A model generated the notes under the pieces. That model was not told the origin of the DNA. It saw nothing but the letters and a program-made list of their open reading frames with translations, and searched no databases. Below are positions 7,014 through 25,400 of a stretch of DNA of 64,000 nt, one piece after another (the stretch's first letter is position 1; each line of letters opens with the position of its first letter). Source of the stretch: Ianthella basta (lineage: Eukaryota; Porifera; Demospongiae; Verongiida; Ianthellidae); contig OZ025872.1 in assembly GCA_964019415.1 (NCBI GenBank), positions 9,560,678 through 9,624,677 of the forward strand, read 5' to 3'. Made by a program: the position numbers and the translations under genes.

Positions 7014-7406
7014 ATGTCAGCGAAGAAACCGTCCAGGCTACGCGAGACCAAGTGGAGAGCTGACCTCGAAGAGGAATTTACATCCAGCTTACCGCTAGAC
7101 GCTCTCTTGCCTACGCTACACGCAGAGGATGTACTCACTGACTACGAATATAAACAGCTCCTCCCCACACCGCTAACACTTGTGGAGAGGAATCATAGGT
7201 TCTTGGAGTATCTTGGTAGTACGGATCCGTCTGCCCTCAGACGTACACTGTTCATTCTTGGCCGTTCTAAACATCAAGGTCACCGATACCTCGGGGAGAT
7301 TCTAAAGAAACTCTTCGGTTTAGAGGGAGAGGAGGATGGGTGGATGCGCGGGAATGCGAACAACGTCCTACAGCAGGGACTGCAGCGCAGCAGTAGAGAC
7401 AAAGAG
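7014..7406 (+). CDS. NLR exon 1: CARD-like domain 1 with start codon
   Basis: 131 codons starting MSAKKPSRL. The CARD-like fold signature runs from about residue 25 to 105: LPLDALLPTLHAEDVLTDYE, then PTPLTLVERNHRFLEYL and a C-terminal helix ending LKKLFGLEGEE. This matches the CARD consensus (short helix, 'VLT.EE', 'R...LLDYL', final Leu-rich helix). The exon ends ...RDKE before the donor gtgaac. An acidic tail follows the domain as in the other copies. Confidence 0.75.
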
Positions 7407-22400: not shown

Positions 22401-25400
22401 GATTCAACCTGGTTGTTTAATTCAGATTAACCTATCTGTGTGAACTGTTTAAATGGGTTAAATACCTTCTTCATTGCCAATCTAATTGTTACTGACTAAT
22501 TGTGTGTGTATGAGCTTGTGTTGCAATCATATCTTATGCTTAAAGTGCATGTTGTGTTGAGAAAAATGAGTGATGATACCCTTACTTTCCTTCTGTGCCA
22601 TTACCTACTCAGCAGCCCAGCCTATGAGTCCATGGAACATTGATGCACTTGTCTCCCTGCAAGGGGACCTCAAGTTGAAAGTATTAATGAGCACAGGACT
22701 GAGCGATAAGTTACAGATCGCCGCTGGAGGGTTTTTGAATGCTGCGGAAGCCCAGCAAGTGAGTAAACAGCATGGCAACGATGAGCAGATTGCCAAACTG
22801 ATCGAAATTTTGAAAGGAAAACAAGACAAAGACTTCATCACATTCCTGAGTATGTTACAAGATACTAACAATGAAGTATGGGCAAAGGAGCTAGAGAAAA
22901 GGGCAGAAAAATTCAAAAGAGAAAATAGTAAGTGTGTCAGCTTGTGTTGTCATAGCAATCATGCGTTGAAGTTAGTCGCTCTGTGAAGTACGCTCCAAAC
23001 AGTCTGTAAACAATTCAGGCTCACTGACATGATAGCTTCACTGAAGTTAGAGGAACTAATCAATACTTGGACACAATGCATTCTCGAATTGCCACAAAGC
23101 AGTCACAAAGTTGTGTATTTTGTATTTGTACTGTTTGTCTGGTGTATTGAGCTTGGCTGCATTCCAATGGTCAGTCAATGTTTGTGCTTCCGACAATTTT
23201 TTGAGTCCGAGAAATGATTTTCCAGTGACCGAGCAGGAAGTAGCTTTTAGGGCATGGCAAGGAGGAGTTGCTGCGACAAGTCAATCTGAAGGTATTCTAG
23301 AGTCAGCAAGGTGTCTGATTTCAAAGACAGTTCACTTACTTCAGCTCCTTCCTGGAAGAGACATTGCAAATGATGTAGAATGTCCGAGCATTGATCACTT
23401 CCTATGCTTGTATGTTCTTTCTGGAGATGATGCTTCTGAAGTATTAAACATAAACTTGCCACATTGGCTGAGTGTTTAGATTCATGCAGTGACGAAGGCA
23501 GAATAGAATCTATACAGATATAGACTGTGTGCAAAAAGACCATTATGCCTGGTATGTCTCCACTTATCCATCTATACATACATGGAAGTTACTCTTGAGT
23601 GCAGTCCCTTTTCTGCACATTCAGGGTCAAACAAAACGTTTACAGTTTGTTTAATTCCCACAAACAAATGTATTCATTATAATTATGTCATGCACATTTC
23701 ATGTGCCTTGGTACATGGCACTGGATGTAATAAGTAAATATGGCAGTTGACCATGAAGTAAACACTCGTATAGTTGTAGGTAAAAGTGGAGGAAAAACAA
23801 GATGGTTGAGAAAGAAGAAAAAAGGACTTTCCAGTTGGTTCTTCACCTATGCATTTGATAACATCTTGTCCAGTGTGTATATGTTTTGACTGATTCACCA
23901 ACAAAAGGAGTGTTAAGGGCATTTTACCTTAATTAACAGTCAAAATTCTTTAACTCTTTTGACCGATTTTTTATTCAACTATTTGGCTCTTCATTCAACC
24001 CCTACTTATTTGTGTGAACTGGAATGCCGGGAATATGTGCTATAAATGTGACATAGATGTTGAGCTAATACAATATGTGGCCATGCCATGTCTAGCTCAA
24101 CTCCTTCACTCTGTAGTTGATGGAAGAGGAAGTGATGGAGTGCTGACCTCATCAACCAGTAATAAAGGGGTGAGCCTATAAATTATGCCTGAAGCATAAG
24201 ACATGGGTGTGATGTGTATGCATACCTTTTCATTGTCTTGAAACTGCCTGGAAATCTTTTCGCTATTCACTGCATCCTGCTAAAAAGTTGATGGTGCATG
24301 GGTATAGTACATACAGTGGAACCCCTATAATGCGAACACCCTTTGGAACAAGAGAAGTGTCCTGATTATAGGGGTGTCCGCATTTCAGAGGTATGGCTTA
24401 TACGCCCATACGTTAAAACAATCATCTAGTATGCATGAAAGTATCAAAATAAGACGAATTTGCAAAGGTAGAGGTGGTTCGCTTGAGTATTCGACTCACG
24501 CACCATTTCTGAAGATGATTCTAAAGGGTAGCTGTTCGTGCTGAACTTTCCCATGTTAAAGACACTTTCAAAACCCTTAGTATAGATGCTTTTCGGCACT
24601 CGTCAACTTCTGTTCTGTTCTGTTCCTGTCACTTGTCAGAGGTAGCGGTGCAAATCAGAGAGCGGCCATTTTCTGGCAGATGATCGAAATGTCCGGATTA
24701 TCGAGTGGAGTTTATACAGAGTTGTATAGGGCGGTGCACAGGGCGCTGTCCGCAATACTGAATAACGGGGTGTCCGCATTTCAAGGGGAAGTTAATACAG
24801 TTAGAATATGGCCAATCGTCGGGACTTTAGAAAGTGTCCGCATAATCAAGGTGTCCGCTTTTCAGGGATGTCCACAAGGCGGGGTTCCACTGTATGTACA
24901 TACAGTTATACTACATTAATACGAATGGGCATTTATTGATTCTGCGTTGATTCTGAAATGTGTAGAACTGACAACACGAATAAAAGCAAGAGAACCAAAC
25001 TAGACAACACCTTGGCATGTTCGACGATGACTCCTAACGATTTACTCCTTCAGTGTTCAGTTTATGCTCCTGGGGGTAGGACAGTTTTTATATGGGTCGC
25101 ACATGCAGCACATGCCAGCCTGGACCATCAACATTTTACAGGATGTACCATATGTGATATTGTTGTCAGCAACTGCTAGCCTACCCACAATTCATGGATA
25201 TACGTATTTGTCTTATTTCTGGGGTGATAACCAGTGTGTAATATTTTATGTTTCAGGATTGGATAGGAATAGGATAGGAAAGCTTTATTATTATGGGGAA
25301 GCCTTTAACCATAGAGGCTACTATTCTAGGCACCCAGTACAACACAATACATATACACATGCAATAATAATTATCATGCAGAGTTTAGGTTAAATTGAAC

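Follow-up and report, generated by a model that had tools for sequence, protein, structure and literature searches.

The Ianthella basta genome holds, within the 64,000-nucleotide stretch of DNA analyzed here (the window), six consecutive exons that each encode one CARD-like domain of a single subtype (CARD-A), followed on the same strand by a CARD exon of another subtype (CARD-B) and by a NACHT exon. On balance, we interpret this locus as a multivalent NLR receptor that arose from a CARD-A, CARD-B, NACHT layout, whose array would serve as a signaling platform for a TRAF-type partner; we infer the transcript, the platform role, and the partner from gene layout and family comparison.

Exons of the array and assignment to the CARD family

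The array comprises the following exons:

7014..7406, plus strand: E1, CARD-A copy 1, first coding exon, starting with ATG at 7014
8210..8671, plus strand: E2, CARD-A copy 2, phase 0-0
12612..13019, plus strand: E3, CARD-A copy 3, phase 0-0
13274..13696, plus strand: E4, CARD-A copy 4, phase 0-0
13852..14301, plus strand: E5, CARD-A copy 5, phase 0-0, the exon used for the AlphaFold model
14539..14979, plus strand: E6, CARD-A copy 6, phase 0-0

Each exon is a multiple of three in length and is bounded by AG and GT, except that E1 opens with its ATG, the earliest one past the in-frame stops upstream. All six end in phase 0, as the five internal ones also begin, and identity to E5 ranges from 50 to 72%. 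For independent detection, a CARD-A profile was built from 20 public proteins, leaving out the window copies and their close counterparts to avoid circularity, and run against every window ORF of at least 25 amino acids on both strands. It matched the E1 to E6 ORFs with E values from 2.7e-50 to 2.7e-34, against 0.59 for the next-best window ORF and 0.029 for the best match in a reversed-peptide control. Exon borders, lengths, and profile thus confirm the original prediction of six tandem exons with one CARD-like domain of the same subtype each. The E2-E3 intron contains, at about 8755-9330, an element with long inverted ends (by eye) that is probably a transposon.

Assignment of these domains to the CARD family by profile holds for the relatives, 29 of whose 44 aligned members match PF00619 (best E value, 3.8e-7), but less so for the window copies, four of which match weakly, under the curated cut-off (E values of 0.005-0.013), while E1 and E2 lack any Pfam CARD match. 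No DD, DED, or PYD model appeared among the five families listed for the 44 members, and 16 of the 93 public homologues have precomputed PF00619 annotation. Structure prediction, the check proposed along with the original CARD call, bore it out: the AlphaFold model of E5 shows the six helices of a death fold and resembles CARDs more closely than DD, DED, or PYD, and the few death domains among the 50 structural matches listed all ranked below 40 others. A PDB sequence search with CARD-A returned nothing significant, its best matches being a PCI-domain protein (E value, 0.23) and the CARD protein NOL3 (0.52). The CARD-B exon of the window scores just under the PF00619 cut-off (1.6e-4; 22.0 bits against 23.9), and its family matches more broadly, with 15 of 16 members hitting PF00619, 12 hitting CARD_2, and 2 additionally hitting Death_3 weakly. 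Profile-profile comparison of CARD-A and CARD-B gave no convincing match; a common profile was therefore dropped, and the two are kept as separate subtypes.

Sister genes and the proposed extent of the gene

Downstream of the array, the gene model continues with these features:

17075..17327, plus strand: X1, possible linker exon, uncertain, phase 0 to 1
18548..18702, plus strand: X2, possible linker exon, uncertain, phase 1 to 0
18938..19166, plus strand: X3, Q-rich linker exon, phase 0 to 1, 3' end conserved across sister loci
22616..22927, plus strand: CARD-B exon, phase 1 to 1, acceptor and donor conserved among sister loci
24117..24169, plus strand: Y, short 53-base exon between CARD-B and NACHT, phase 1 to 0
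26331..28023, plus strand: NACHT exon (Pfam NACHT, 2.3e-27), with a putative donor at 28023
36885..36998, plus strand: exon whose sister-gene homologues likewise follow NACHT, no Pfam match
37232..37309, plus strand: exon with sister-gene homologues, borders provisional
39323..39590, plus strand: exon that looks LRR-like by eye, with sister-gene homologues, borders provisional, no Pfam match
39700..39870, plus strand: exon that looks LRR-like by eye, with sister-gene homologues, borders provisional, no Pfam match

Pfam was run on three of the four downstream exons (36.9, 39.3, and 39.7 kb). X1 and X2 have no homologue among the fetched sister regions, and their reading as degenerate extra CARD-A copies was rejected, since the profile gave no meaningful match (one X1-overlapping ORF, E value 9.9). 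The original prediction had set a seventh CARD just before NACHT within 7014..22927. That CARD indeed belongs to another subtype and lies upstream of NACHT, but the 53-base exon separates the two, and the NACHT exon falls outside that interval. The NACHT exon retains intact nucleotide-binding motifs (GKST, DGFDE, and TTRP). The joined frame from E1 to NACHT is free of stops, with 1757 residues when X1 and X2 are included, 1621 without them, and 1517 when CARD-B is skipped, which stays in frame because X3 and CARD-B share phase 1 at their 3' ends.

Across the genome, searches returned 58 rows of CARD-A relatives, at least 150 CARD-B relatives (150 of 356 candidates scored), and 76 scored NACHT relatives of 437 candidates; the window NACHT shares 54-66% identity with those of sister A-B-NACHT genes among the matches listed. 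At least 31 of the 50 CARD-A places outside the window continue on the same strand to CARD-B and then to NACHT. The remainder include at least 5 A-NACHT, at least 1 A-B, and at least 8 A-MATH arrangements, together with 5 that have none of these within 10 kb; the neighbor counts were drawn from part of the rows and are therefore lower bounds. The usual predicted gene in this genome is CARD-A, CARD-B, NACHT, as a rule with a single CARD-A; two sister loci have two CARD-A exons, 5-6 kb apart.

Across all 24 rows, which represent 21 distinct loci with the window counted, the CARD-B acceptor keeps the same place and phase; its donor is a GT in each of the 17 rows compared, and 11 sister loci contain a Y-like stretch. 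The NACHT acceptor position varies among sister genes. The end motif of X3 with its phase-1 donor is present in the window and in 13 of 20 fetched regions, and was not found in the other seven (L029, L032, L033, L034, L046, L047, and L048). In the compact sister loci L030, L031, L035, and L041, the entire X3 exon is free of stops and has the phases of the window copy (0 to 1); elsewhere, its last 50 codons are stop-free in L036 and L042 and contain an in-frame stop in L037-L040 and L043-L045 (7 of the 13 with the motif). Some sister CARD-A exons are also broken, which together with these stops suggests that CARD-A may be dispensable in some sisters. In L023, L027, and L028, X3 precedes CARD-B with no CARD-A found nearby, so X3 by itself does not prove a join to CARD-A.

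The window fits the layout of the two-CARD family, with the exon order A, X3, B, Y, NACHT and matching phases. Since the array occupies the place of the single first CARD exon of the sister genes, array and NACHT are taken as a single NLR gene, which would span 7014 to about 39.9 kb and carry E1 to E6, the Q-rich linker, CARD-B, NACHT, and the LRR-like exons on one transcript. The proposal that the six CARD-A exons, CARD-B, and NACHT belong to one gene is thus supported, beyond the matching phases, by the same order in sister genes and by a linker exon common to both, with the single transcript from E1 to NACHT a prediction from that layout.

Several observations at sister loci are recorded alongside. 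In several sister genes, among them L042 (4466-4825), the polypyrimidine tract upstream of CARD-B translates into a signal-peptide-like sequence, with an ATG that is not conserved. An independent start at CARD-B with its own signal peptide was rejected as the main start, because the start codon varies (ATG, GTG, TTG) and the frames differ, whereas the splice acceptor is conserved at all the loci compared. At L047 (G000:C21:3435000-3444900), the CARD-B exon has been copied recently together with its flanks (window, about 21.5-23.2 kb), with about 95% identity over the exon at the protein level and no NACHT match in the fetched stretch. NACHT rows of G000:C10, as well as X3 in L037-L040 and L043-L045, often contain exactly one in-frame TAG or other stop, and the stops of sister copies are often similarly placed, as in amplified broken copies or something stranger.

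Origin, age, and selection

The array is best read as the first CARD exon of a two-CARD NLR multiplied to six. dN/dS is below 1 in all 15 copy pairs (0.18-0.50; Nei-Gojobori, 92 ungapped codons), which suggests that selection acts on each CARD-A copy. dS is 0.32 between E3 and E5, 0.64 between E1 and E2, 0.69 between E4 and E6, and up to 1.52 for the others. The intron 3' of E3 resembles that 3' of E5 (76% over 154 bases), as does the stretch 5' of E4 that 5' of E6 (73% over 105 bases). One step may perhaps have copied a two-exon unit, which this flank likeness fits, but other flanks are alike too, those of E4 and E5 showing 67-76% over 54-134 bases.

A protein search retrieved 93 public relatives. 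Several of them, on short contigs, group with individual array copies at starred support in the tree: P0138 with E1, P0142 with E2, P0135 with E3, and P0132 and P0133 with E5. Two further relatives, which are array-type CARDs and likewise lie on short contigs, come from more distant sources. P0127 is 74% identical to E2 and groups with it at 48/74 only, and P0156 is nearest to E5 by tree path and has a similar linker. The array probably predates the divergence from the source of P0127 and P0156. In a tree of the species' own genome, E1 joins single CARD-A copies (93/81), and monophyly of the six is not rejected (AU p 0.455), whereas the tree with public sequences places the array copies in one group (94/92, not starred); because the two trees differ on monophyly, the order of duplication is not firm. 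An assembly artefact was rejected, given dS values of 0.64-1.52 in 14 of the 15 pairs and the close public counterparts of four copies. The array looks old and kept. A search of public proteins with residues 120-500 of the joined six-CARD protein (7994 candidates scored) returned no spliced homologue. Elsewhere in the genome, L080 (G000:C3:1070000-1072000) holds at 561-1454 a single ORF with three similar tandem CARDs of another subtype, which indicates more than one origin of CARD arrays here.

Proposed function, rival explanations, and TRAF-type genes

Nucleation limits CARD signaling, and a receptor usually pays this cost by oligomerizing. In the working we propose, sensing would open the receptor and NACHT would oligomerize it, whereupon the arrayed CARDs would offer a ready high-valence nucleus to a CARD partner. 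The best candidate for this partner would be a TRAF-type adaptor whose CARD is of the same subtype; its TRAF part would be clustered directly, with ubiquitin signaling to follow. In published work, the tandem CARDs of NOD2 may cooperate (PMC3314614), and they attach to RIP2 CARD filaments at one end (PMC6168553); nucleation barriers restrain death-fold adaptors, in a sponge as well (PMC13012725). Given such barriers and the NOD2 precedent, a six-CARD array could lower the trigger threshold. That the array, whose six CARDs in one chain would suffice for more than one turn of a CARD helix, might form its own filament nucleus, so that one or a few activated receptors seed TRAF-CARD adaptors with no kinase or BCL10-like adaptor in between, is a speculative extension that we regard as doubtful.

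The human NLR NOD2, compared here on domain layout and not as an ortholog, likewise has multiple CARDs preceding NACHT, but two instead of the seven of the window gene. One or two CARDs are the range for human NLRC proteins in a metazoan NLR survey (PMC11508797). Sponge NLRC genes (CARD-NACHT-LRR) share the CARD-NACHT layout and form large lineage-specific families; the accessible part of the Dysidea avara report gives 20 such genes, counted by N-terminal CARD, and describes no CARD arrays (PMC12909245). The sister A-B-NACHT genes have the same exon order and CARD-B acceptor phase, and in many cases X3, but one CARD-A in place of six. Two-CARD NLRs are already known, while neither a six-plus-one array nor any CARD array in an NLR was found among the literature matches listed (open-licence papers), as was the case for TRAF-CARD fusions among the matches listed. 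About three dozen NLR places of this genome have a single CARD-A (some of them broken) and the window has six, a natural series that permits a direct test of the effect of CARD valence on the trigger threshold.

Alternatively, the locus could hold two transcription units: one gene for the CARDs of the array, running from E1 to E6 or X3, and a distinct CARD-B NLR driven by a promoter of its own, the two perhaps sharing exons through alternative splicing. The 7.6 kb from E6 to CARD-B, the B-NACHT loci with no CARD-A found nearby, the frame left open by CARD-B skipping, and the three loci with X3 before CARD-B, which make X3-B reachable from another start, all suit such a division. The one-gene reading is further weakened by the X3 stops and by the unsettled NACHT acceptor. 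We nonetheless consider two units unlikely: the acceptor AG conserved at 21 of 21 distinct loci means that CARD-B is read as an internal exon, neither the Met before CARD-B (Ile in L034) nor the upstream ATG of the signal-like reading is conserved, and a CARD-A exon lies upstream of CARD-B and NACHT on the same strand at 31 of the 50 other CARD-A places.

The original prediction allowed that the array may act either as a filament-seeding platform or as a decoy. CARD-only proteins such as ICEBERG soak up CARD partners, and an array that did likewise would dampen the sister receptors, which share its CARD subtype and with whose partner it could compete, possibly through an array-only splice form. 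However, an intact NACHT with nucleotide-binding motifs follows the array in frame, which argues for a receptor and leaves a brake improbable. Neutral duplication of exons, or decay of a gene that gained no function, would accord with the tandem CARDs in one ORF at L080 and with the stops in several sister CARD-A and X3 exons, which indicate that duplication and decay both come easily here. We judge this very improbable, because the six window frames are all open, dN/dS stays below 1 in every pair, and four copies have close counterparts with open frames in public contigs.

TRAF-type genes are the sole other gene type identified with CARD-A. On contig C13, a phase 0-0 CARD-A exon (phase by reading) lies between a zf-TRAF exon and a MATH exon, and MATH is just downstream in 8 of the 10 CARD-A copies of this contig. 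These genes share the CARD-A subtype with the array, but zf-TRAF and MATH replace NACHT, and they have one CARD each among the genes inspected. One locus of this type is:

G000:C13:5955500-5965400, minus strand: L048, TRAF-type locus with CARD-A

It contains two CARD-A copies, one with an in-frame TAG. Mean identity to the TRAF CARDs is 37% for the window copies and 32% for other NLR copies, but the NLR sister L046 reaches 52.5%, above every array copy, so no preference of the array for TRAF CARDs can be claimed. With the vertebrate NLR-to-TRAF route as the comparison, these CARD-bearing TRAF-type genes suggest a shorter one.

The window itself sits in a region with dozens of MATH matches (G000:C5, about 9.45-10.33 Mb), and the NLR is surrounded by a large cluster of TRAF-like ORFs, each a single exon. 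Those in the window are:

1207-2613: TRAF-like ORF
3386-4897: TRAF-like ORF
52764-54038: TRAF-like ORF
55581-56885: TRAF-like ORF
59569-60891: TRAF-like ORF
63570-63998 (minus): TRAF-like ORF

The two that were scanned contain RING, zf-TRAF, and MATH. The window also has, at 61912-62421, a tandem repeat with several reading frames open on either strand.
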